Source: Clostridiales bacterium
GTDB lineage: Bacteria > Bacillota > Clostridia > Tissierellales > GPF-1
Assembly: GCA_013619125.1 (NCBI GenBank)
Contig: JABXKS010000049.1
Coordinates: forward strand, 1 to 56,259
Reading direction: 5' to 3'
Length of the DNA stretch: 56,259 nucleotides
Under the pieces are notes generated by a model. That model was given only the letters and a program-made list of their open reading frames with translations. It had not been told where the DNA came from and ran no database searches. Both the position numbers and the translations under genes were made by a program. Shown one piece after another: positions 30,711-43,973 of the stretch (position 1 is its first letter; each line of letters opens with the position of its first letter).

Positions 30711-31892
30711 TTATTTTTCAAGCAAAGCTAGAATCCCCTCAATTTCAATCGTTACACCATATCTTATACATTCTTCGTCCACATTAAATCTCCGATTATG
30801 AAGAGGCTCTACAATTCCCAAAATCTTATTTCCGCAACCTAAATGGAAAAATGCAGATGGAACTTTTTCTGCAAAATAAGAGAAATCTTCCCCCCCTAGA
30901 CTTGGAAACTCCTTATAAACTATATTTTCATTCCCTATGATCTTAATAGCTGTTTCTTCAATAACTTGAACTACCTCACGGTCATTAATCAACTCAATAT
31001 ATCCATCATGAAAAGTTACTTCAGCCCTTCCGCCAAGTCCTTCAGCTACCTTTGTTGCATTTTGTGCAATTATCTTCTTTACAGTCTCTCTCGTCTCTGT
31101 ATCAAGCGTTCTTAGTGTTCCTTCCATAACTACTTGATCTGTAATAATATTTGCTTTTTCCCCACCGTATATTTTACCAAACGTCAATACAACAGAATTC
31201 AACGGTGATACATTCCGACTAACCACCATCTGTAGACTGGTCAGTATATTTCCTGCGATTGCAATCGCATCAACCGTAGTATCCGGATATGCAGCATGCC
31301 CGGATTTTCCACGAATCACAATCCTCACCATCCCTGAATTACCATTAAGCTTTCCATACCTTAATTCTACTTTCCCTGTAGGAATATTTGGCATGACATG
31401 AAGACCAATCACATGATCGACTTGTGGATTCTCCAAGCATCCATCCTCAATCATCCGCTTAGCGCCACCAATCGCTTCTTCTGCAGGTTGGAAAAAGAGT
31501 TTTACATTTCCCTTTAGTTCATTTTCCATTTCCTTCAAGAGTTTACCCACCCCTAATAGTATTGTCGTATGAACATCATGGCCACAAGCATGCATCACAC
31601 CTTCATTCTCAGAGCTGTAATGACATCCTGTGGCTTCCTGAATAGGCAGCGCATCGATATCCGCTCTGACAGCAATCGTCTTCCCGTTTCCTTTTTTGCC
31701 GCGAATAATTCCAACAATGCCTGTTTCCGCATACCCGGTTTCATACTCAATATTCCACTGCTTGAGATACTCACAAATCTTCCTTCCCGTACGAATTTCC
31801 TTCCCGCTCAATTCAGGGTATTGATGAAAATCACGTCTTATTCGCACCAAACTTTCAAAGATTTCAGTTACCTTCTCTTTCGTTGTCCGCAT
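30711..31892 (-). CDS. M20 amidohydrolase (N-acyl-amino-acid/hippurate hydrolase type)
   Basis: A 393-residue cytoplasmic zinc amidohydrolase of the M20D group. Metal-binding HACGHDVHTT, the PAEEAIGGAKRMIEDG segment with the catalytic glutamates, and GLHVMPNIPTG are all present. Relatives release amino acids from N-acyl, N-benzoyl or indole-acetyl conjugates. It is the last gene of the sigma-54 operon and may finish degradation of the product left by the upstream transferases. GGGAG precedes the ATG. Confidence 0.9.
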   Translation of the reverse strand: MRTTKEKVTEIFESLVRIRRDFHQYPELSGKEIRTGRKICEYLKQWNIEYETGYAETGIVGIIRGKKGNGKTIAVRADIDALPIQEATGCHYSSENEGVMHACGHDVHTTILLGVGKLLKEMENELKGNVKLFFQPAEEAIGGAKRMIEDGCLENPQVDHVIGLHVMPNIPTGKVELRYGKLNGNSGMVRIVIRGKSGHAAYPDTTVDAIAIAGNILTSLQMVVSRNVSPLNSVVLTFGKIYGGEKANIITDQVVMEGTLRTLDTETRETVKKIIAQNATKVAEGLGGRAEVTFHDGYIELINDREVVQVIEETAIKIIGNENIVYKEFPSLGGEDFSYFAEKVPSAFFHLGCGNKILGIVEPLHNRRFNVDEECIRYGVTIEIEGILALLEK

Positions 31893-32110: not shown

Positions 32111-33712
32111 TTATATACCGAATGCTTGACCATCCCGCCTTGGATCAGCGCCGCCCGTTATCAGATTGTTCGCCAGGAATTTGATCCCATTCACCCCACC
32201 CATCTTATGATCCCAAGCCTGCCGCTCAAATACTTCGTGCCCCATCTGTAACAGCCGCTCAATCGACTCCGCTTGAAGACGGTTTTCATAATAAATCACA
32301 TTAGAAGTATTTTGTGTGATGCGAGGTGAATTAACCGCTTCTTGAATATCCATATCGTGATCGATTAATTTGGAAATCACCTGAACAACGATATTGATGA
32401 TTCGCGCACCCCCGGGTGAACCCACCACTGCAAATGGTTTCTTGTCTTTCAATATAATTGTTGGCGCCATCGTACTTAGTGGTTTCTTCCGCTTGTCGAC
32501 AGAGTTGATATCGTATCGCTTTGTCGAGAAGTCCGCCATTGTATCATTTAACAGAATACCGGTTCCCTCCGCAACCATACACGATCCAAAAAAATGATTA
32601 ATGGTTTTGGTTACCGAAACCAAATTGCCAAATTGATCGCCAATCGAATAATGGGTTGTATCTTCATGCTCATAATTCCACGGATCATAGCAGTCTGGAT
32701 TTCGTGCAACATTCATATCGATTTTTTCGGATAGAATTCGTGCGTATTCTTTTGATCGAATCCCCTTCACTGGTACATCAACAAAATCTGTATCTCCCAT
32801 AAATTTTGATCGATCTTCATAAACCAATTTAAAAGTTTCAGAGAACAGATGAAGGTACTCAGCCGAATTCACTTCAAGTGTACGAATGTCGTAATTCTCC
32901 AAAATATTGAGCGCCTGAATGATATGAGCGCCACCTGAACTTGGGGGCGGAGAAGAAATGATCGTGTACCCCCGATATTCGCCTACAATCGGTTTCCGAA
33001 ATTCCACCTTGTATTCTTTTAAATCACGATGGGTAATCAGCCCGCCCTGCTGCCGAATCGTCTTAATAATTGCATCCGCGATTTCCCCTTCATAAAAGGC
33101 GTCTCGCCCCTCTTTCCCAATCTTTTTCAAACTCTCTGCCAGATCGGGATTTTTAAAGAGGTCTCCCGCTTTATAACCGCTGCCGCCATTAAGAAAAATC
33201 CGCTTCGCATCCTCACATTTTTCAAGATGTTCGGCATAATCCACGAGCATCTTTTCCATCATCTTGGATACAATGATTCCCTCTTCAGCCAAACGAATGG
33301 CAGGTGCAATCACATCTTCTAAACACATCGTTCCATAGCGCTTTAAAGCTTCAATCATACCCGCTACTTCACCTGGTACACTGACTGATTTTGCACCTAT
33401 GACGTTTTCCTTATTCCTCACGGTCCCATTTTGATTCACTTGCCACATATCCGGTGTCGCATTTTCTGGTGCAAATTCTCGAAAATCGATAAAAACCGCT
33501 TCCTCTTCATCAGTGGGCTTAATCGTCATAAATCCACCCCCGCCGATACCCGATGTGGCTGGTTCAGCCACTCCAATTGCAAACCCAACAGCGACAGCGG
33601 CATCAATTGCATTCCCGCCCTTCTCAAGGATTTCAATACCAACCTGCGAGGCTTCTGATTTTCCACTTGAAACCATGGCTTTCATACCTAAATTTTTCAT
33701 ATGTTTGTTCAT
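32111..33712 (-). CDS. Gamma-glutamyltransferase, cytoplasmic (paralogue 1)
   Basis: A 533-residue Ntn-hydrolase of the gamma-glutamyltransferase family. The precursor is expected to cleave itself before Thr in DTTHYSIGDQFGN, whose threonine becomes the nucleophile; the oxyanion/substrate loop is VVGSPGGARI and the glycine-rich GIGGGGFMTI is intact. Unlike most GGTs it has no signal peptide, so it would work inside the cell on imported gamma-glutamyl compounds. The ATG at 33712 is preferred to a GTG 12 bases upstream. It lies 22 bases after its paralogue in the operon. Confidence 0.9.
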   Translation of the reverse strand: MNKHMKNLGMKAMVSSGKSEASQVGIEILEKGGNAIDAAVAVGFAIGVAEPATSGIGGGGFMTIKPTDEEEAVFIDFREFAPENATPDMWQVNQNGTVRNKENVIGAKSVSVPGEVAGMIEALKRYGTMCLEDVIAPAIRLAEEGIIVSKMMEKMLVDYAEHLEKCEDAKRIFLNGGSGYKAGDLFKNPDLAESLKKIGKEGRDAFYEGEIADAIIKTIRQQGGLITHRDLKEYKVEFRKPIVGEYRGYTIISSPPPSSGGAHIIQALNILENYDIRTLEVNSAEYLHLFSETFKLVYEDRSKFMGDTDFVDVPVKGIRSKEYARILSEKIDMNVARNPDCYDPWNYEHEDTTHYSIGDQFGNLVSVTKTINHFFGSCMVAEGTGILLNDTMADFSTKRYDINSVDKRKKPLSTMAPTIILKDKKPFAVVGSPGGARIINIVVQVISKLIDHDMDIQEAVNSPRITQNTSNVIYYENRLQAESIERLLQMGHEVFERQAWDHKMGGVNGIKFLANNLITGGADPRRDGQAFGI

Positions 33713-33734
33713 ATCGTCACCCACATTAATTGTA

Positions 33735-35366
33735 TTAATATCCTATGGCGATACCCTCTCTTCTAGGATCCGCGGCACCCGTAATGTTTCCATCTTCACC
33801 ATACCGAATGCCCTGAACGCCACCCATTCTTCGATCATATTCCGATAGTTCACTCACTGCATGTCCCAACTGCATCAACTCATCAATCACGTTCCTGCTG
33901 ATCCGTCGCTCATAGTTCAAAACGCCATTGCTATCATTTGAAATACGCGGACTATTGATCGCCTCTTTGATCGTCATCTGATGATCAATTAATTTTGAAA
34001 TCACCTGAACAATCGTGGTAATAATGCGATTGCCGCCTGGAGAGCCTAAAACTGCAAAAGGATGCCCCTCTTTCATAACAAGCGTAGGGCTCATGGAACT
34101 AAGCGGTTTCTTCCCCGGCCCAACCGAGTTTACTTGGTTAGACTCTCGTACAAACCCCCGCATCTGGCAATTAAGAACAACCCCCGTATTTTCAGGTATC
34201 ACTCCAGAACCAAAAAACGCACTAATTGTCTTCGTCACAGAAACCATATTCCCCGCCTGATCAGCAATGGAATAATGCGTCGTATCTTTCGATTCATATT
34301 CAAATGGGTTGCTGCCATCACACTGACTCACACCGCTCATGCTGATCTTAGTGGCAAGTTCTCTGGCATACGCCTTAGAAACAAGGCCTTTCATGGGAAC
34401 TTTTACAAAATTTGGATCTCCCATATATTTCTTGCGATCATCGAAAACCATTTTAAAAACTTCAGACAGAAGATGCAAATATTCAACCGAATTGACAGGG
34501 TACTTCCCCATGTCGAAATTTTCGAGAACATTTAAACTTTGAATAATATGTGTCCCACCCGAACTCGGCAGTGGCGAGGAAATGATCTCGTAGCCTCTGT
34601 ACGTCCCTCTAAGAGGCTCAAGTTCCTGTACACGATACGCCATTAAGTCTTCCAATTCCAGCCGACCCCCGTAGTGTCGAACAGATCGTACAATTTGTTC
34701 TGCAATCTTCCCATGGTAGAATTCTTGTTTTCCGTGTACTGCAATTGCCTTCAAAGTTTCTGCCAGCGGCTTGTTTGTTAAAATATCCCCCACTTGATAT
34801 GTGTCAAGAAACACATTTCCCGTTTCCTGATAGCGCAGCAGTTTATCACGAAATTCTGAAAGGTCATTTTTCAAGCCTTCAGTCACTTTAAAACCATTTT
34901 CTGCCAGGCGAATGGCAGGCATTAGTACCTCTTTTAACGGCAATGTCCCATAGGTTTCCAGCGCGTAGATCAAACCATCCACTTCACCCGGAATACAGAT
35001 TGATTCACCACCTTGAGATTTAGCGTCTTCCACAACTTCCCTTTGACTGTCCAATTGCCACATCAAAGGCGAAACTTTCTTCGGAGCTGTTTCTCTAAAA
35101 TCAAGAAATCGAATTTCACCAGTGGTTCCAGTACGAATTGTCATAAATCCACCACCTCCGATTCCCGAAGCATTCGGTTCACACACACCAAGTGCAAACC
35201 CTACTGCGACTGCAGCATCGATGGCATTCCCACCACTTCTGATAATATCAATTCCAATTTTTGTCGCATCATACTTTGCCGCCGCAACCATACCGTTTCT
35301 TCCTGTATCCGCACGATTCTCTCGATTGACAAACCCGTTGTGATCGGTTAATTCGAATCCCTTCAT
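33735..35366 (-). CDS. Gamma-glutamyltransferase, cytoplasmic (paralogue 2)
   Basis: A 543-residue GGT with the processing site DTTHYSIADQAGN, substrate loop VLGSPGGNRI and GIGGGGFMTI. The layout is the same as in the adjacent paralogue but with many differences, so the tandem duplication is old and the two may form a heteromer or handle different substrates. No signal peptide. GAGGAGCGACC precedes the ATG at 35366. Part of the sigma-54 peptide-uptake operon. Confidence 0.9.
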   Translation of the reverse strand: MKGFELTDHNGFVNRENRADTGRNGMVAAAKYDATKIGIDIIRSGGNAIDAAVAVGFALGVCEPNASGIGGGGFMTIRTGTTGEIRFLDFRETAPKKVSPLMWQLDSQREVVEDAKSQGGESICIPGEVDGLIYALETYGTLPLKEVLMPAIRLAENGFKVTEGLKNDLSEFRDKLLRYQETGNVFLDTYQVGDILTNKPLAETLKAIAVHGKQEFYHGKIAEQIVRSVRHYGGRLELEDLMAYRVQELEPLRGTYRGYEIISSPLPSSGGTHIIQSLNVLENFDMGKYPVNSVEYLHLLSEVFKMVFDDRKKYMGDPNFVKVPMKGLVSKAYARELATKISMSGVSQCDGSNPFEYESKDTTHYSIADQAGNMVSVTKTISAFFGSGVIPENTGVVLNCQMRGFVRESNQVNSVGPGKKPLSSMSPTLVMKEGHPFAVLGSPGGNRIITTIVQVISKLIDHQMTIKEAINSPRISNDSNGVLNYERRISRNVIDELMQLGHAVSELSEYDRRMGGVQGIRYGEDGNITGAADPRREGIAIGY

Positions 35367-35387: not shown

Positions 35388-36143
35388 TTAAAAAATGATC
35401 TTATCGATAAAATTGGTAATTTTCGTAATCACCAAATCATTCATTTCTTTACCAAATTCAACACTAGCCTTCGTCGCATCACCTAAGGCTCCATTTTCAG
35501 ACACTTCATGATAATCCCAAAAAACACCTCCATCATAGGCAAATGCTTTATCAAAATATTTTGTGTCTTCTCTGAACTTCGCCGCCTCTAGCGACTCGTA
35601 CCGAACATGATCAGGAGCTAGAACCATCATTTGCGAAGTCTCCACTTCACAAGCATGCCCTTTAAACTCACCGAATCCATGGGCTTCACTCAGTTCCCGA
35701 ACGAGACTTCCACCCATACTGGAAATATAGATATCCATATCAAAATCCCGCTTCGCTTCCGTTGCAAATTCGTGAATCGGTCTTTTATTGCCACCATGTC
35801 CCGTGATAAAAAGGATTTTATTCATCCCATGTTGCTTGAAACTCCAGCAAATATCCCTTGCAATTTTCAAATAGGTATCTAATGTGAACGTGATGGTTCC
35901 TGGAAATTTCATATGGTGATAAGAGAGTCCAATCGGCAGAGTTGGTGCAATCAACACACGGTCCCCATAAATCTCTCCGATCATTCGTGCCATTTCCCGC
36001 GCACGAACCGTGTCCGTTGCGAGTGTGGTATTTGGTCCGTGTTGCTCTGTTGATCCCAAAGGAACAATGACCAATTCGATATTTTCTTTCTTGTCTTCCA
36101 ATTCAACCCAAGTCAACTCTTCCATAATCAATGCTTTACTCAT
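35388..36143 (-). CDS. Creatininase-family amidohydrolase
   Basis: A 251-residue metal-dependent amidohydrolase. Metal ligands are in PLGSTEQHGPNTTLATD (Glu, His, Asp), GHGGN and HACEVETSQM. Family members open creatinine or other lactams and cleave formamides (for example FAPy deformylase and mycofactocin protein MftE). The ATG at 36143 is chosen because GGAGGAGC precedes it; it overlaps the end of the OppF-like gene by eight bases. Its presence beside two GGTs suggests the imported substrate has a lactam or blocked amide. The exact reaction cannot be read from sequence. Confidence 0.87.
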   Translation of the reverse strand: MSKALIMEELTWVELEDKKENIELVIVPLGSTEQHGPNTTLATDTVRAREMARMIGEIYGDRVLIAPTLPIGLSYHHMKFPGTITFTLDTYLKIARDICWSFKQHGMNKILFITGHGGNKRPIHEFATEAKRDFDMDIYISSMGGSLVRELSEAHGFGEFKGHACEVETSQMMVLAPDHVRYESLEAAKFREDTKYFDKAFAYDGGVFWDYHEVSENGALGDATKASVEFGKEMNDLVITKITNFIDKIIF

Positions 36144-37143
36144 TCCCAGCTCCTCCATACAAATGACACATCACCATATGTCCCTCTTCAATTTCAATTT
36201 CTTTTGGTTCAACTTCTTTACAGATTTCCATGCACTTAGGGCATCGAGGATGAAACCTGCAACCGGACGGAATATCAACAGCATTCGGTGCCTCGCCTTT
36301 TATTTTCTCCAAACTAAACTTCACTTCAGGATCCGGATTCGGTGCCGCCTCAAGCAGGGCTTCAGAATATGGATGATACCGTTTTTTAATCAAAGCTTCG
36401 GTATTGGCCTGCTCAACAATTTTGCCAAGATACATGACTGCTGTTCGATCACTGATATACCGGATTAGCGAGATATCATGAGAAATCACAATCCCGGCTA
36501 ATTTCCTTTCTGCGATCATACTTCTCAAAAGTTTTAATATTCCAGCGCGAATCGAAACATCAAGCATGGATACAGGCTCATCCGCAATCAGAAAAGTTGG
36601 CTCCAATACGAGAGCTCGAGCGATAGCGACTCTTTGTCTCTGCCCTCCGCTCATTTCATGCGGGAACCGCTCCATAAATTGTTCCGCTGGTCGAAGACCG
36701 GCTTCCCCCAAAATCTTCTTTGCCATTTCGTATCTTTCTTTTTTGTTTTTTCCAATCCCATGGATCTCGAGAGGCTCCATCAATGTGTGTTTAATCTTAA
36801 ACCTCGGATTCAAGGATTCATACGGGTCCTGAAAAACCATTTGCGCTTGTTTTCTAAAACTCTTCATTTGCGATCTGTTCAGATGGGAAATATCGTCTCC
36901 CTCAAGCATGATTTTTCCACTGGATGGCGGATATAAGCCCAAGAGCACCTTCGCTGTAGTCGTCTTGCCACAACCACTTTCACCAACAAGACCAAGCGTC
37001 TCACCCTCGTAGACATGAAGATTAATTCCATCAATCGCTTTCAATACTCGAGTCTCTCTGATTTTCCCTTTATTTTTCACTTTCACTGAGAATTCTTTTT
37101 TCAAGTTGATCGTTTCAATGACTTTGCTTCCATTCTCATTCAT
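36136..37143 (-). CDS. Oligopeptide/dipeptide ABC transporter ATP-binding protein (OppF/DppF type)
   Basis: A 335-residue ATPase: Walker A GESGCGKTTT, signature MSGGQRQRVAIARAL, Walker B TFLIADEP, and the C-terminal oligo_HPY region with a cysteine cluster CRFHPRCPKCMEIC typical of these subunits and able to bind an Fe-S cluster. It pairs with the OppD-like gene 11 bases upstream. GGAGAATGACGG precedes the ATG. Confidence 0.93.
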   Translation of the reverse strand: MNENGSKVIETINLKKEFSVKVKNKGKIRETRVLKAIDGINLHVYEGETLGLVGESGCGKTTTAKVLLGLYPPSSGKIMLEGDDISHLNRSQMKSFRKQAQMVFQDPYESLNPRFKIKHTLMEPLEIHGIGKNKKERYEMAKKILGEAGLRPAEQFMERFPHEMSGGQRQRVAIARALVLEPTFLIADEPVSMLDVSIRAGILKLLRSMIAERKLAGIVISHDISLIRYISDRTAVMYLGKIVEQANTEALIKKRYHPYSEALLEAAPNPDPEVKFSLEKIKGEAPNAVDIPSGCRFHPRCPKCMEICKEVEPKEIEIEEGHMVMCHLYGGAGNE

Positions 37144-37154
37144 CCGTCATTCTC

Positions 37155-38162
37155 CTATACCTCTGATTCCCAAGTCTCGGGCAAATCAGCTCGTTTTCTT
37201 AGCTCTTCTTTTTCTGCATGGCGAATGCAGTAAAAATATCCATTCTCAACTTCCGTTTTCTCAAGGCTCATACCCTTGCAGCGCTCTATGACAAATGGGC
37301 ATCTTTCAGCAAACCGACAACCCAAAATCTCCTTTGAAAGGTCTGGTGGGGTTCCGGAAATCGAAACCAATTCCCTTTTCTCTCCGATCAAAGAAGGAAA
37401 CGCATTCTTTAGTCCCATCGTATAGGGATGGTTGGGCTTTTTAAGCACCTGGACGACATCGCCGTACTCGACAATCTTACCTCCATACATCACTGCAACT
37501 TTTGTACAAGTCTGGGCAACGACCGAAACATCATGAGTAACAAGAATCATCGATCCGCTGTACCCCTTAAGAAGATTATTCATTCTTTCAAGGATTTGCG
37601 ACTGAACAATCACATCCAATGCGGTGGTTGGTTCATCGGCAATAATCAACTTTGGATTAAGTGCCAACGACATCGCGATAATCGCTCGTTGCTTCATCCC
37701 GCCACTAAACTGATGCGGATAATCTTGCAGCCGTCCTCGATCAAGCCCCACAAGATCAAAGAGTTCTTCCGCTTTTTCCATCGCGGATCTTTTACCGACT
37801 TTTTCATGCTCAATAATCACTTCTGCAATCTGATCGCCAACTCGGTATACCGGGTTTAACGAGTTCATCGCACTCTGCGTGATTAATGAGATTTCCTTCC
37901 ACCGTTTTTTTCGCATCGATTCTTTTGAAAGCTTGTTTAAAACAACATCCTCGAAAACAATATCTCCCTCAATAATTCTTCCGTTTGACGGCAAAAGATT
38001 GATAATTCCTTTGACCAAGGTGCTCTTACCACATCCACTTTCTCCAACCAAACCCAAAACATCTCCACTTTCCAACTTCAAGGAGACCTGATCAACTGCC
38101 CGTAATTTGCCATCCGACAACCTGTATTCAATTGATAGTTTTTGCACATCAAGCAATGTCAT
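37155..38162 (-). CDS. Oligopeptide/dipeptide ABC transporter ATP-binding protein (OppD/DppD type)
   Basis: A 335-residue ATPase with Walker A GESGCGKSTL, signature FSGGMKQRAIIAMSL, Walker B LIIADEPTTALD, and the C-terminal CRFAERCPFVIERC cluster. It begins two bases after the permease stop, so it is translationally coupled. Powers import together with the OppF-like subunit. Confidence 0.93.
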   Translation of the reverse strand: MTLLDVQKLSIEYRLSDGKLRAVDQVSLKLESGDVLGLVGESGCGKSTLVKGIINLLPSNGRIIEGDIVFEDVVLNKLSKESMRKKRWKEISLITQSAMNSLNPVYRVGDQIAEVIIEHEKVGKRSAMEKAEELFDLVGLDRGRLQDYPHQFSGGMKQRAIIAMSLALNPKLIIADEPTTALDVIVQSQILERMNNLLKGYSGSMILVTHDVSVVAQTCTKVAVMYGGKIVEYGDVVQVLKKPNHPYTMGLKNAFPSLIGEKRELVSISGTPPDLSKEILGCRFAERCPFVIERCKGMSLEKTEVENGYFYCIRHAEKEELRKRADLPETWESEV

Positions 38163-38164
38163 AC

Positions 38165-39016
38165 TTATCTCTCCCTTAGCTTAGGATTTGCAATTTCTTC
38201 AAATGCTCTCCCCATCATATATCCAGACAAGACCAATAATGTGATTGCAATACCTGGAGGAAGAACCCACCAAGGTGCTTTAAACATCGCTTGCGATTGA
38301 TAACAGGTAAATAGGATTCTGCCCCAGCTCACCTGCATCGGATCACCAAGACCTAAAAAACTGATACTCGATTCCGACATAATCGCCGAAGCCATTGAGG
38401 TAGAAACGTAAATCAAAGATACTGGCACCACATTGGGCGCGATATGTTTATACAATATTCGAAAATCACTGGCACCACTTAATTTTGCGGCTTCAATAAA
38501 GGTTCTATTCTTAAGAGATAATACCTGCGCTCGTATCACCCGGGAAGAATTCCGCCATGTAATCAAGACGATAGCCAAAATCACATTCTGGACACCCGGA
38601 CCTAAAACAGAAACTAAAATTAATGCAAAGGGCAAAAATGGTATTCCATACATGACATCCACGATTCCCATAAGGATTCTCTCAACAATGCCGCCAAAGT
38701 ATCCAGCAATCAACCCAATATTCGTTCCAATAAAGGCCACACAAACTGCAGAAATAACGCCGACAAGCACAGCGATTCGCGTGCCGATCACCATCTGAGA
38801 AAAAATATCTCTTCCCATATAAGTCGTTCCCAGCAAATGCCCCATGGATGGTGACAAAAGTCGTTTCACGCCACCCTCTGCAAAGAATTGAATTTCCATT
38901 GGGTCATAGGGAGCAAGCTGATCGGCAAAGATTGCCACCAACACAAAAAACATGAATATCGACAATCCAATGATCCCGATAATATTTTTCTTGAACAATT
39001 TAAATATGTTCTTCAT
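38165..39016 (-). CDS. Peptide ABC transporter permease, DppC/OppC type
   Basis: A 283-residue permease with the OppC N-terminal domain (LAPYDPMEIQFFAEG), then the inner-membrane domain with the ATPase-docking EAA loop EAAKLSGASDFRILYKHIAPN. About six helices. GGAGGAGCGGG precedes the ATG. It is 10 bases past dppB-like. Confidence 0.93.
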   Translation of the reverse strand: MKNIFKLFKKNIIGIIGLSIFMFFVLVAIFADQLAPYDPMEIQFFAEGGVKRLLSPSMGHLLGTTYMGRDIFSQMVIGTRIAVLVGVISAVCVAFIGTNIGLIAGYFGGIVERILMGIVDVMYGIPFLPFALILVSVLGPGVQNVILAIVLITWRNSSRVIRAQVLSLKNRTFIEAAKLSGASDFRILYKHIAPNVVPVSLIYVSTSMASAIMSESSISFLGLGDPMQVSWGRILFTCYQSQAMFKAPWWVLPPGIAITLLVLSGYMMGRAFEEIANPKLRER

Positions 39017-39026
39017 CCCGCTCCTC

Positions 39027-40004
39027 CTATCCTAACGACACTCTTGGGTCAAGGTATGCATACAAAACATCAGCAATCAGATTAAAAACAATCGTTGCAA
39101 ACCCAATAAATAGAAATGCGCCTTGTGCCATCGGATAATCCCTAGAGCTTACTGCAAGAACAATTTCTCTTCCCATTCCAGGCCATCGAAATACAGTTTC
39201 AACCAATACTGAACCACCAATAGCAAGGCCTGCCTGCACGGCAAAAATCGTTACAACAGGTAATAATGCCGTTCTCATCGCATGTCGTCTTCGCACCTTC
39301 TTCTCTGGAATGCCTTTTGCATAAGCAAGTTCGATATAATCTTCCTTAATCACTTCCAGCATTGAGGTTCTCATTAATAATGTTGGTGTCGCCATGGAAT
39401 ATAAAGCAGAGGTAATTGCAGGTAATATCAAGTGCTTTAAAAAGTCCAAACTCAAAATTTTATCCCAGAATCCTGTGAAATTTTGACCCACACTCGTCAT
39501 TCCACCAAGTGGCAACCATTCTAGTTTAAAGGCAAAAATCGAGAGTAGAATCATCCCGGTCCAAAAAACCGGCGCACACCGCACAATCAACGCTAAAATT
39601 GTTCCAACCAAATCAATCTTGGAATTGCGATGCCAAGCAAGAAAACTTCCAGTTTTTATTCCCAGTGTAAAAGCAATCATTAATGATGTAAGCGTCAGAA
39701 CCAATGTGTTTAAAAATCGCTCAGAGATCACTTCAACAACGGATTTTCCATAGGTAAATGAATTCCCCAAATCTCCACGAAAGAGATTTTTCATATAAAT
39801 GATATACTGCTCTGGAATCGGCTTATCCAATCCATAAAGCTTCATCATCAATTGCTGTGATTCGGCATCAAGCCCCGAATCGATAAACATACTAACAGGA
39901 TCGCCCGGAATGACTCTGAACATCAAGAAGACAATAGATACAAGTATGAACAATGTGATAAATACAATAATGAGTCTTTTAAATAAATATTTGGCTAATC
40001 TCAT
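39027..40004 (-). CDS. Peptide ABC transporter permease, DppB/OppB type
   Basis: A 325-residue permease: LRIVFRVIPGDPV-like start (VFLMFRVIPGDPVSMFIDSG), then YIELAYAKGIPEKKVRRRHA as the EAA loop and GGSVLVETVFRWPGMGR near the end. About six helices. It lies 86 bases past the binding-protein gene, with an RNA hairpin between them. Confidence 0.93.
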   Translation of the reverse strand: MRLAKYLFKRLIIVFITLFILVSIVFLMFRVIPGDPVSMFIDSGLDAESQQLMMKLYGLDKPIPEQYIIYMKNLFRGDLGNSFTYGKSVVEVISERFLNTLVLTLTSLMIAFTLGIKTGSFLAWHRNSKIDLVGTILALIVRCAPVFWTGMILLSIFAFKLEWLPLGGMTSVGQNFTGFWDKILSLDFLKHLILPAITSALYSMATPTLLMRTSMLEVIKEDYIELAYAKGIPEKKVRRRHAMRTALLPVVTIFAVQAGLAIGGSVLVETVFRWPGMGREIVLAVSSRDYPMAQGAFLFIGFATIVFNLIADVLYAYLDPRVSLG

Positions 40005-40090: not shown

Positions 40091-41800
40091 TTATTCAGGC
40101 ATAATTGGAGTGACTTGGAAATTTTCAGGGTAGTATAATCTCCCTTTGTCATCCCAGCGATATCCTGCGTTTTCCAATTCTTTTCTTGCAGCATCCAAAT
40201 TGAAGTCCAATTGTTCAACATCTGGATTAAACCAAAACTCATTCGTCTCAGAGATCAAACTAAAAGTTGAAAGTCCACCACCATCAAGAACAACATCTAT
40301 GATTTTTTGGCGTGGAATCGCCATCGTTAAAGCACGACGTGCATATACATCATCAAATGGCGCTGTTCTCATATTGTAATGAATTATATAGCTTCCTTCA
40401 TCCGGTAGCTCAACAATGGCAATATCCGGATTCTTTGCAACTGCTTCCAAGTCTAGTGGCAACATGTTGGCCGATGTTAATTCAACTTCGCCCGCTACAA
40501 GCCCTTGAACCAATCCAATCGCCTGGGCATATGGGGTTCTAATAATCGCATCAATTTTAGGTTTCTGGAAGTATTCTTTATTGGTTTTTAAAGCGAATTC
40601 TTCATTTGGTCTCCAATAATCAAAGACAAACGGTCCCGATCCAATCGCTGGTAAATTATCCCAAGTAAGAACGCCTTCAGCACCTTTTTCCTCGTATGCT
40701 TTACTCCAAATATGTTTAGGTAAAATTAGGCATTGTGACAATGTGTTTGATATAAACGGCGCATACGGTTCGAATAATTTGAACGTAACGGTATTCTCTC
40801 CGGTGATCTCCACGGATTCAATGCTCTTCACATGCCCCTTATACGTTGGAGAATTCACTTCTTTCGCAAAATCAAAAGTGAATTTAACATCCTCCACAGT
40901 AAGCGGCTCTCCGTCATGGAATTTCACATCATCTCGAATCGTAATCTCAATCGTTGTGTCATCAATCTCATTAAGCTCTGTGGCTAACCACAAAACCGCT
41001 TCCCCTTTCACATCAAGTCTGACCAAAGGATCATAGATGTTTTTAAGCATATAAATATCTTGTCCCGTTTTTGTTGCCAAAGGATTTAGTAGATTAATAT
41101 CATTGACCTGCCCTAAGTTTAGAATCTTATCATCAGTTTTCGGTGTGATGTTCATGAAATTCCAAAAACTATATACACCTAAACCAACACCTGGTGTAAC
41201 ATTTGTGAATTTCGCTTGATTATACGCGTTTTTTAATTCCAGTTTGAACATTGGTGGTTGTGGAACATCACGAGCAAGCAATTCTTGCATTTCCATCGCA
41301 GCAGATTGTCGTGCTTCTAAATCAAGATTCGTCGCAAATTCTTCTGCAAGCGCGTCATATACTGGATTAATATACCCCGCAATATTATAACCACCTTCAT
41401 CGGCTGCGGATGAATGATGCATGGAGTAGAGCCAATGATAGGGATCGACTCGTTCAGGCTTTCCGCCCCATTTCACCATAAAAGCATCATGTTCATGTGC
41501 TTTCATGCCTTCTGCAGACATCGATGCCCACTCACGAGTCTGTGCGTCAACTTCAAATCCAAGTTCTTTCCAACTTTCCGCAACCATCAATCCCGCTTCA
41601 TAGCGGATTGGATCAGCCGCTTGCGTTTGAATCCAAAACTCTATCGCTGGAACTTGATCTGCCGGGTCCAATTGATTTGTCACTGCTTCGTCGCCTGATG
41701 CAGGTTCTTCCGTTGAGGCGACGAATTGCGTACATCCTACAGAACTCAGAAGCATCATCGCAACAAGTAGCAACACCAGAATTTGCCGATAGCTTTTCAT
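40091..41800 (-). CDS. Peptide-binding lipoprotein with circularly permuted SBP_bac_5 domain
   Basis: A 569-residue lipoprotein; signal peptide with lipobox SVGC (Cys23). Residues about 52-220 resemble the C-terminal part of family 5 binding proteins: AEGMKAHEHDAFMVKWGG, DPYHWLYSMHHSS, GYINPVYDALAEE and ARDVPQPPMFKLEL. Only then, from about 224, come the features that normally open the mature protein (NDINLLNP, IYDPLVRLD, DDVKFHDGEPLTVEDVKFTF), running through GSGPFVFDYWRPNEEF to LENAGYRWDDKGRLYYPENF near the end. The sequence that would ordinarily follow that point is exactly what sits at the N-terminus, so all parts are present once in permuted order. Start codon has GGAGGAG. First gene of the sigma-54 operon; likely binds the substrate for the downstream hydrolases. 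Confidence 0.9.
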   Translation of the reverse strand: MKSYRQILVLLLVAMMLLSSVGCTQFVASTEEPASGDEAVTNQLDPADQVPAIEFWIQTQAADPIRYEAGLMVAESWKELGFEVDAQTREWASMSAEGMKAHEHDAFMVKWGGKPERVDPYHWLYSMHHSSAADEGGYNIAGYINPVYDALAEEFATNLDLEARQSAAMEMQELLARDVPQPPMFKLELKNAYNQAKFTNVTPGVGLGVYSFWNFMNITPKTDDKILNLGQVNDINLLNPLATKTGQDIYMLKNIYDPLVRLDVKGEAVLWLATELNEIDDTTIEITIRDDVKFHDGEPLTVEDVKFTFDFAKEVNSPTYKGHVKSIESVEITGENTVTFKLFEPYAPFISNTLSQCLILPKHIWSKAYEEKGAEGVLTWDNLPAIGSGPFVFDYWRPNEEFALKTNKEYFQKPKIDAIIRTPYAQAIGLVQGLVAGEVELTSANMLPLDLEAVAKNPDIAIVELPDEGSYIIHYNMRTAPFDDVYARRALTMAIPRQKIIDVVLDGGGLSTFSLISETNEFWFNPDVEQLDFNLDAARKELENAGYRWDDKGRLYYPENFQVTPIMPE

Positions 41801-41844: not shown

Positions 41845-41861
41845 TGCAAGTCTTGTGCCAA
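41845..41861 (-). promoter_or_regulatory. Sigma-54 (-24/-12) promoter
   Basis: The minus strand reads TTGGCACAAGACTTGCA: GG and GC are 10 bases apart, the canonical -24/-12 spacing. Transcription would start near 41833, about 33 bases before the binding-protein start. A sigma-54 activator gene lies directly upstream. Confidence 0.85.
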
Positions 41862-41918
41862 TAAAAAATCACTATGGACCGACCAATTTCATGCTCTATT
41901 TCGCATAATTGCACCAAA

Positions 41919-41960
41919 CAAATGGTTTAATTGTATACGCTCATACAATTAAACCATTTG
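41919..41960. promoter_or_regulatory. Perfect 18-bp inverted repeat: activator site and/or terminator
   Basis: CAAATGGTTTAATTGTAT (41919-41936) and its exact complement (41943-41960) flank ACGCTC. It starts seven bases past the stop of the activator gene and lies about 86 to 127 bases before the sigma-54 start, where enhancer sites of such activators are found. TTTG-TTT after the stem on the minus strand would also allow weak termination. Both uses are possible. Confidence 0.6.
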
Positions 41961-41966
41961 ATTCCT

Positions 41967-43973
41967 TTAATGATTCAAATACACAATCCCCTTTTTAGTA
42001 ATTTTTGTTCCACCCCGCCCTAAAGCAATCTCCACACATCCCAATTCCTGCAATCGAATCAATTCTTTTCGCACCTCTTGCTCACTCATAAAAATTTTTT
42101 GGATTCCCAGCTCAGCTGAAATCGATTTTCGACCTGTTTTCTTTCCTTTTTCACTACGATCATAGATAATTTGAAGAATCAGTTCTTCGATTAGTTTGTC
42201 ATTAATTGGAATTTGATTCGTCCGCTCAACAAAATCCTGATCTATTTTCATGTTGTCTGGTAAATCAGCCATGCCAATGACAGGTTTCTGAAGATTCAAC
42301 AGATACTCAATACAATTACTTAATTCGCGAACATTGCCGTCCCAATTGTAAGAGAGAAAAAACTGATGAACAGCTTCGTCTATTTGTAAATTCGCTCGCC
42401 GCTCTGCAAGCAAACTATTAAATATCTCAAATACATCTCCCCCTCGCTGCCTGAGTGGTGGAATCGTAATCGGCAGAACACTCAAACGATAATAGAGGTC
42501 CTTGCGAAACTTGCCAACCTCCACTTGTTTCTTTAAATTGATATTCGTTGCAGCAATAATCCGAACATCAATATTTATAATTGTATTGCCTCCAACTCGC
42601 ATGATTTCTTTTTCTTGTAGAACCCGTAATAATCGATTTTGCAGATGGAGTGGAACCTCAGCAATTTCGTCTAGGAATAGAGTTCCTCCATTGGCAATTT
42701 CGAACAGCCCGCGTTTTCCGCCTTTTTTTGCACCCGTAAACGCGCCATCTTCATACCCGAACAATTCACTTTCGAGTAAATTCTCTGGAATCGCCGAACA
42801 ATTGACCGCAACAAATTGTTCCTTGCTTCTCTTCGAATTATTATGAATCACATGTGCAAAGAGTTCTTTTCCAGTCCCGCTTTCACCCATAATCAGTACG
42901 GTCGAATCACTCTTCGCCATCCGCACTGCAATGTTTTTGATTTTCTGGATCGCGCCGCTCGAGCCGACAATATCGTTTAGCCGATATTTTGATACATGTC
43001 CCTTATCCATTAACTCCTTTTTATAGACATGCATCTTCATCTCTGCATCGTTAAATTTTTTTAATATAACCAACCCATAGTCATTGTTTCCAAAAGTCAT
43101 TTTCGGCATAATATTGCAAATCATCGGATCGTGATTCACCTTTATCATGGACTCCACAGATTCGCTTCCGAAAATATGATCGAGTTCTACCGGAAGCACC
43201 TCGCTGATTTTCTTCCCCAGGATATTTTGTGTTGATTTGGCTAGCAATTTTTGCACACTATCACTACTTGATGTAACAACGCCACCGCTGTTATAAATCA
43301 ACACACCTTCTTTTAAGTTTTCGAACAATACGTTGATGATATTGTCAAGCATGTACCTTTCACTAATGACAAAAGAAACCGCATCCACACTTTCACTTTT
43401 AATGCTTGTGCGGTTCATCAACTTACTAAGAAACTTCTTGTTATCCAGATTGAAATAAGAAATAATTTCCAAGAATATTCTTGTATCAATTGTCGTATTA
43501 TAGATATCAACAATCGTCCCCCCATATTGCGGAACGATATCCAACTCGCCTTGTGTCAAAATATAGTCCAGCTCTTTGTAATTCTCAATTCCAGGATAAT
43601 AAGGATGAAGTTCCAAGTCCGTTCTTCCATATGAATAGATTAGATAGATACTTTCTGATACCGTCTTTGGACCTACATTAACAACGAGAGCCTCAGACCC
43701 ATAGGGAATTTTATTGATTCTCTCAATTCCTTTTGGATTGATATTTTTAACGATCTTGAATATTTTACAAGTCTCATTTACGTACGGCATAATCTTGTCA
43801 ATAATAGTATGCGTCGTAATCATAATCATGTTGTATTGGCTAATGACCTTGATATTGTCATCCGAAGCCATAATATAATCGATTTGAATTTCGTCATCAA
43901 AAAAACTTTTCAATTCTCCACAATGGTATTTTGCTATTTTTTCTGCAATCGCAATCACAATTACTCTTTTCAT
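41967..43973 (-). CDS. Sigma-54-dependent activator with winged-helix C-terminus
   Basis: A 668-residue activator. N-terminal sensory region (1-200) with no family I can name, a PAS-like domain (about 212-310), a flexible linker, and an AAA+ domain (332-560) with Walker A GESGTGKE (363-370), GAFTGA sigma-54 loop (410-415) and LFLDEIAEVP. The C-terminus (600-668) is basic and looks like a winged helix (ISAELGIQKIFMSEQEVRKE, then LGRGGTKITKKG) and not the usual Fis-type helix-turn-helix. Gene order and the adjacent -24/-12 promoter show that it activates the peptide-uptake operon. Confidence 0.9.
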   Translation of the reverse strand: MKRVIVIAIAEKIAKYHCGELKSFFDDEIQIDYIMASDDNIKVISQYNMIMITTHTIIDKIMPYVNETCKIFKIVKNINPKGIERINKIPYGSEALVVNVGPKTVSESIYLIYSYGRTDLELHPYYPGIENYKELDYILTQGELDIVPQYGGTIVDIYNTTIDTRIFLEIISYFNLDNKKFLSKLMNRTSIKSESVDAVSFVISERYMLDNIINVLFENLKEGVLIYNSGGVVTSSSDSVQKLLAKSTQNILGKKISEVLPVELDHIFGSESVESMIKVNHDPMICNIMPKMTFGNNDYGLVILKKFNDAEMKMHVYKKELMDKGHVSKYRLNDIVGSSGAIQKIKNIAVRMAKSDSTVLIMGESGTGKELFAHVIHNNSKRSKEQFVAVNCSAIPENLLESELFGYEDGAFTGAKKGGKRGLFEIANGGTLFLDEIAEVPLHLQNRLLRVLQEKEIMRVGGNTIINIDVRIIAATNINLKKQVEVGKFRKDLYYRLSVLPITIPPLRQRGGDVFEIFNSLLAERRANLQIDEAVHQFFLSYNWDGNVRELSNCIEYLLNLQKPVIGMADLPDNMKIDQDFVERTNQIPINDKLIEELILQIIYDRSEKGKKTGRKSISAELGIQKIFMSEQEVRKELIRLQELGCVEIALGRGGTKITKKGIVYLNH

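Follow-up and report, generated by a model that had tools for sequence, protein, structure and literature searches.

Natural circular permutation of a bacterial binding protein has been described in Treponema pallidum, where the lipoprotein Tp0684 (TpMglB-2, classed as "Type Ic / Cluster Bc") serves an ABC importer (PMC4990184). According to that paper, the permutation moves strands of the N-terminal lobe and adds a fourth hinge crossover. Similar permutants are reported there from other bacteria, tethering is raised as a possible reason for the rearrangement, and an origin as a chimera is considered. The protein described in the present study resembles TpMglB-2 in being a permuted lipoprotein that would act as the binding protein of an ABC importer, but TpMglB-2 belongs to cluster B (glucose/galactose-binding, MglB-like proteins), which has another fold class, whereas the present protein is placed in cluster C by its sequence. 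Ordinary members of family 5 (SBP_bac_5), such as E. coli DppA and the oligopeptide-binding protein AppA (PDB 1dpp and 1xoc), share with it both segments over most of their length and a BCDF-type importer, but carry the segments in the reverse order. Among the titles and abstract openings listed by searches of one open-access library, no circular permutation in family 5 was found; the author of the earlier note on this DNA likewise knew of no described case. Natural permutation of a binding protein is already in print for cluster B; the family 5 case is new within the literature covered.

The window, meaning the whole stretch of 56,259 nucleotides that was analysed, contains a minus-strand gene (40091..41800) encoding a protein of 569 amino acids. 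SBP_bac_5 (PF00496, cluster C) is the sole Pfam family detected in it at E-values up to 1, with a score of 222.3 bits against a Pfam cut-off of 32.4; no sequence signature of cluster B (MglB type) was found in the same search. The score of the NCBIfam DppA equivalog, 72.6 bits, is below its cut-off of 1005. Residues 1–49 (41654..41800, minus strand) comprise a signal peptide, a lipobox and a linker. The lipobox-like SVGC at residues 20–23 (41732..41743, minus strand) matches the lipobox pattern, in keeping with the lipoprotein signal noted earlier, and Cys23 is presumably lipidated. Segment X (residues 50–221; 41138..41653, minus strand) corresponds to the C-terminal part of ordinary family 5 proteins, and segment Y (residues 222–560; 40121..41137, minus strand) to their N-terminal part.

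The swapped order is evident from profile comparisons. In the protein, Pfam aligned residues 269–556 with profile positions 3–287 and reported a separate second stretch. At the DNA level, the first match (40124–40996) covers profile positions 3–288 with 195.7 bits, and the second (41426–41644, residues 53–125) covers positions 288–360 with 29.7 bits and an E-value of 6.2e-7, a score that, taken alone, is below the curated Pfam cut-off. Positions 3–360 of the 368 in the profile are thus covered, but not in the usual order: the stretch that begins at position 288 lies upstream of the one that ends at 287, so that the swap falls at 287/288. Residue alignments with PDB entries 5u4o, 1xoc and 8efz are swapped in the same way, protein residues 225–551 corresponding to the front of these chains and residues 52–183 to their back. 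A single colinear full-length SBP_bac_5 match was sought in the protein and not found. HMM X (window protein residues 50–221) and HMM Y (222–560), both built from permuted relatives, each match the window protein once. The central claim of the earlier note, a family 5 lipoprotein with swapped segments and every part present once, is borne out by these results. Its boundaries needed small corrections, since the part placed in front extends over about residues 50–221 instead of 52–220 and the remainder begins at 222 instead of 224. The protein was also said to end at LYYPENF, which is incorrect: the chain ends with LYYPENFQVTPIMPE, eight residues past this motif.

Rotation of the sequence in silico gave a concordant result. 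When the window protein was rotated at the junction and compared with a profile made from ten ordinary proteins only, one colinear match of 319.5 bits was obtained over columns 38–499; the best match of the unrotated protein to the ordinary-only profile scored 253.2 bits over columns 35–357, with the second match separate. Of 22 proteins, 21 scored higher after rotation; L077, which is cut by a contig end, did not. The pseudogene L078 was excluded from this comparison.

The point at which the chain was opened was located by searching PDB chains with X and Y profiles built from 21 permuted proteins (L077 and L078 were left out). The X profile matched residues 356–481 of E. coli DppA (E-value 3.4e-17) and 360–495 of AppA; the Y profile matched DppA 12–341 (E-value 1.3e-47) and AppA 24–349. 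The two segments complement each other, and the opening is placed between DppA residues 341 and 356 because the matches end and start there. By the domain limits that we assume for DppA, this interval lies inside domain III, in lobe II, which agrees with the earlier placement of the new termini; a cut in lobe II would also distinguish this family from TpMglB-2. The expectation that the hinge connections differ was not quite right: on the same assumed limits both of the usual hinge segments are retained, and the chain passes through them in reverse order. The join of the old C-terminus to the old N-terminus, FWNFMNITPKTDDKILNLGQ, is direct, contains no long spacer and is conserved in close relatives.

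It is very probable that the window protein is a natural circular permutant of the family 5 (cluster C) solute-binding proteins, presumably a clamp tethered through lobe II that feeds its own importer. In the proposed course of events, the gene would have been opened in the loop after the "...AGYxWDxxGxLYYP" helix (DppA 341–356), the old termini joined without a long spacer (...FWNFMNITPKTDDKILNLGQ...), and the old C-terminal part provided at its front with a new signal peptide, which in the window protein includes a lipobox. The chain would then fold as the usual two-lobed clamp, tethered via lobe II instead of lobe I, and would hand its substrate to a co-inherited OppB-OppC-DppD-DppF importer. 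The fold is deduced from sequence because the AlphaFold2 prediction for the window protein with four relatives (five sequences) had a pLDDT of 41.8 and a pTM of 0.32; the model was not used.

The X-Y order was found in 47 loci, belonging to the window, its phylum, Alphaproteobacteria and haloarchaea, and in none of 59 other family 5 proteins. In the first set, all 23 permuted loci were X-Y with each segment present once, and the 35 ordinary proteins comprised 31 Y-X and four with Y only. Second copies of L012, L016, L013 and L014 (L065–L068) bring the ordinary reading frames to 39 (35 Y-X and four Y only), and L079, judged to be the same contig as L042 because both length and score are equal, was dropped. 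The second set (L107–L129) was X-Y in 23 of 23 loci. The third set, of 30 rows, contained six X-Y proteins, five of which repeat already counted loci (L117, L121, L127, L124 and L125) and one of which is new (L152); its 24 other proteins were 21 Y-X, two Y only and one with a split Y (L140). The permuted loci of the first two sets were retrieved by similarity to the permuted protein and L152 by a family search, and most of the 35 ordinary proteins were retrieved as matches to the Y part of the window protein; because of this retrieval by similarity, the counts demonstrate conservation of the order, not its frequency across family 5. The occurrence of the same order in 46 further loci indicates that the swap is more than chance, and the homologues for which the earlier note suggested a search do form a subfamily, falling into a single clade.

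Among 60 genomes, that of the window included, near-full-length matches to the permuted protein were present in its own genome and two others, among the matches listed; none of the remaining matches listed starts before residue 212, which places them in the Y part or only just ahead of it. In the order of the window, 13 of 249 genomes gave a match at E ≤1e-60, nine of them (its own included) with the permuted order and four with the Y part only. Matches were found in 2 of 391 genomes of the class and 8 of 398 of the phylum, its own again included in each; the best three to five candidates per genome were scored in the order, class and phylum surveys. One of the matches in the phylum is a pseudogene in genome G644 (L078:4707-6358): its signal peptide is interrupted by a stop codon, and a deletion has joined the beginning of segment Y to a DppF-like ATPase. 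The whole-genome surveys covered the window's own phylum and the class of genome G707, where 19 of 59 genomes matched and the order, verified in ten of these loci, was X-Y throughout.

Plasmid records yielded 26 matches at E ≤1e-40, each in one piece and 24 of them covering at least 80% of the protein. They come from haloarchaea (Halalkalicoccus, Haladaptatus, Halorussus, Halobaculum, Natrononativus and Haloprofundus) and Alphaproteobacteria (Nitratireductor, Roseomonas, Ketogulonicigenium, Microvirga, Neorhizobium and Maritalea); all 13 of the plasmid loci in which the order was verified are X-Y, and none of the 11 annotated loci examined carries any annotation hint of the permutation. A second, very divergent permuted binding protein is encoded by a plasmid of Haladaptatus pallidirubidus (L152:586-2505); it is the first branch of the permuted clade as drawn and has a long branch. 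Of two scans of viral contigs, one revealed one partial relative and the other none.

In the large tree, calculated from 32 of the 47 permuted proteins (rotated for alignment) and 39 ordinary rows, the permuted proteins form one side of a branch supported at 99/95 and found in 200 of 200 bootstrap trees. An earlier tree of 21 permuted and 35 ordinary proteins (L077 and L078 left out) gave 100/99 for the same branch. The clade spans the window's phylum, Alphaproteobacteria and Halobacteria, and the Halalkalicoccus protein adjoins the group of the window (98/90). The permuted genes have probably moved between lineages, since the haloarchaeal and alphaproteobacterial members are nested among those of the window's phylum. 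The OppB and OppC permeases follow the same pattern, those from 20 of the 23 first-set permuted loci forming one group (100/100) apart from those of 19 ordinary loci.

Separate trees of the two segments bear on the possibility that the protein is a chimera, in which a front part taken from another binding-protein gene was fused before an N-terminal fragment, so that the halves differ in history. Such an origin would accord with the X-only tree, which recovers the permuted group imperfectly (the permuted label needs two changes, not one), and with the Y-only tree, where L015 and L012, both ordinary, tie as nearest (mean path 3.08). Nevertheless, L015 also ranks first among the ordinary proteins in the X-only tree (mean path 3.02), and X and Y complement each other, overlapping nowhere and leaving at most a small gap. 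The short segment X is not decisive, given the two changes needed in its tree. The single-segment trees favour one permuted gene over a chimera, and fusion of two genes is considered unlikely; the description of the protein as a clean permutation holds with that small reserve, and truncation is contradicted by the profiles, the rotation, the conserved order and the single clade. L015 and its counterpart L020, from two genomes of the window's order, differ from the window protein in having the ordinary order and a signal without a lipobox. The C-termini of both contain a hydrophobic stretch and a basic tail that, by eye, resemble a membrane anchor.

It is very unlikely that the permuted protein is decayed or moonlighting, for example as a sensor only, and has ceased to be a transport binding protein. 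One relative, L078, is indeed a pseudogene; however, dS was unsaturated in 7 of 16 comparisons, which gave dN/dS of 0.05–0.07 for X and 0.06–0.13 for Y, values that are rough as dS exceeded 1 in all seven; all four comparisons with the window protein itself were saturated. Moreover, the permease group is co-inherited with the permuted protein, and the flanks examined contain no other recognisable family 5 binding protein next to the importer genes. Both segments are under purifying selection, which keeps the permuted protein at least in the relatives measured. An assembly or cloning artefact, with tandem binding-protein genes wrongly joined across a repeat in a single draft assembly, might be invited by a draft of 130 contigs with nine other SBP_bac_5 matches, but its probability is negligible and it is already refuted by independent records, because the same order occurs in separately assembled haloarchaeal and alphaproteobacterial plasmids described as complete sequence and in four genome records at 70–76% identity (Acidaminobacter sp. 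JC074, a Marinisporobacter MAG, Clostridiaceae bacterium HSG29 and Dethiosulfatibacter aminovorans). These named relatives identify the window's phylum as Bacillota. Since the same swap is present in other bacteria and in haloarchaea, the swapped order is apparently an old, working rearrangement and not a sequencing error.

The permuted gene is part of a run of minus-strand genes. It is preceded by a gene for a sigma-54 activator (41967..43973; Pfam Sigma54_activat), the probable regulator of the operon, and is followed, according to profile matches, by genes for OppB-type (39027..40004) and OppC-type (38165..39016) permeases, both also placed by the permease clade, and for DppD-type (37155..38162) and DppF-type (36136..37143) ATPases. 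Further on are a creatininase-family amidohydrolase (35388..36158; Pfam Creatininase), two gamma-glutamyltransferases (33735..35366 and 32111..33724) and, after a gap, an M20 peptidase/amidohydrolase (30711..31892). With the genes of an OppBCDF-type importer adjoining it, the permuted protein most likely serves this importer. The tandem gamma-glutamyltransferases (32111-35366) both have a TTHYS motif; no signal peptide was seen by eye in either, so both are probably cytoplasmic. In L039–L042 the same run extends from the activator, in the same place, to the second gamma-glutamyltransferase (for L041 no DppD reading frame was listed). Permease and ATPase genes directly follow the binding protein in all 11 annotated plasmid loci; the 14-kb contig of L076 contains no recognisable permease gene.

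A sigma-54-type promoter match, TTGGCAC-N5-TTGC (41846..41861, minus strand), begins 61 nt before the start codon. The window contains no other exact match; a search tolerating one mismatch gave two, against 0.94 expected by chance. The pattern occurs at the same place in three of the four closest relatives, L040 being without it. A sigma-54 promoter common to the subfamily was considered and rejected, because the strict pattern lies within 400 nt before only 4 of 23 permuted genes, and the promoter is regarded as local since all four carriers belong to the close group of the window. Between the end of the activator gene and the promoter there is a long inverted repeat (41900-41979, core TTTAATTGTAT...ATACAATTAAA), possibly an activator site or a terminator; inverted repeats with similar TACAATTAA-type letters occur at about the same place in L039, L040, L041 and L042. 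The activator is 56–67% identical in L039–L042, and its first 200 or so residues, which have no Pfam match at E-values up to 1, are possibly an undescribed sensor domain.

Genes for enzymes acting on amides, peptides or amino acids accompany the permuted gene in other loci as well. In Halalkalicoccus, creatininase and M20 genes come after the importer; L073 and L074 have an Asp/Glu racemase nearby, and L074 also an M19 dipeptidase. Near the plasmid genes are hydantoinase/oxoprolinase with M20 or M28 (three loci), a gamma-glutamylcyclotransferase family protein (one locus) and, some kilobases away, a dipeptide epimerase with a D-aminoacylase (one locus); no amide or peptide enzyme gene is present in the Nitratireductor stretch shown. 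A peptidase C26 gene (gamma-glutamyl hydrolase type) is situated just upstream in L043 and L080; it shares 11 bases (L043:12281-12291) and 14 bases (L080:3709-3722), respectively, with the start of the permuted gene, which suggests translational coupling.

The nature of the substrate can be approached through the binding site. In DppA, the carboxyl end of a bound dipeptide is held by R383 and its amino end by D436; an R383D+D436R double mutant binds no dipeptide (PMC12136057). D436 (precursor numbering), the amine-binding Asp, is absent in the window protein, where K114 occupies the site within the motif K114-P-E-R117-V-D-P120 of segment X (41441..41461, minus strand). In most permuted proteins, the stretch aligned with this region of DppA carries "W-x-G-[KR]-x-E-R-x-D-P" or a similar motif. 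In contrast to the ordinary proteins, 41 of the 47 permuted ones have Lys or Arg at the K114 site (one has Asp), and an extra Arg corresponds to R117 in 44 of 47, the exceptions being L123, L125 and L128. A comparable replacement is known in HbpA2 of Pasteurellaceae, where Asp408 (mature numbering) has become Arg and the authors call glutathione or dipeptide cargo "highly unlikely" (PMC3295651). The substrate of the window protein is, on this evidence, probably not an ordinary peptide; the designation "peptide-binding" in the earlier note was right as to a family 5 binding protein and is doubtful as to the peptide. The Lys/Arg and Arg motif, together with the neighbouring enzymes, suggests amides without a free amine in the usual place. 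The substrate proposed tentatively, with somewhat less than even confidence, is a small amide lacking a free alpha-amine there (gamma-glutamyl, pyroglutamyl, hydantoin-like or N-acyl amino acid), which the neighbouring enzymes would hydrolyse within the cell. The proposal draws on some neighbours and one motif, and of 20 neighbour proteins compared with Pfam seven are enzymes of amides or peptides or racemases of amino acids, while 13 do not fit, including electron-transfer flavoproteins, a sulfatase, a TRAP permease and one protein without any match. A charge swap in the scoop loop of OppB, answering the Lys/Arg of the binding protein, was also considered; an acidic residue is common there, but at least one ordinary OppB, that of L092, has one too, and no such swap is claimed.

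The tether varies within the subfamily. A lipobox pattern is present in 27 of the 47 permuted proteins and missing from 20 (the pseudogene L078 counted as having none), which is a further difference from TpMglB-2. By group, it was found in 7 of 7 haloarchaeal, 0 of 7 alphaproteobacterial and 20 of 33 proteins from the window's phylum. In 16 genomes with permuted genes searched for the outer-membrane marker Omp85, this protein was present in exactly the three whose permuted protein has no lipobox and absent from the other 13; the three form one branch, with two in one genus, and so represent one event, and 4 of the 13 negative genomes are less than 90% complete. Among L107–L116, from genomes outside this set, nine of ten have no lipobox, L107 being the one that does. 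It seems that lipidation follows the cell envelope while the permutation stays, which speaks against tethering as its purpose. A lipid tether as the reason for the permutation was rejected, the lipobox being absent and the permutation kept in all three genomes with Omp85.

A broader proposal, to which we give about an even chance, is that a single ancient permutation gave rise to a subfamily of cluster C ("Cluster Cc") that spans Bacteria and Archaea and in which no reversion was seen. Its members would have their own permease and would take up substrates that ordinary proteins hold badly, such as N-blocked, gamma-linked or cyclic amino-acid amides; they would be tethered in one-membrane cells and soluble in cells with an outer membrane, the permutation not having arisen for tethering. 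The occurrence of these proteins suggests that annotations reading "ABC transporter substrate-binding protein" hide a subfamily with substrates of its own. If the fold is as supposed, the common fold for larger substrates tolerates a cut in lobe II and has worked in this form through deep evolution, in bacteria and archaea alike, and the permuted family would offer a natural test of how the positions of the termini and of the lipid tether affect Venus-flytrap proteins.
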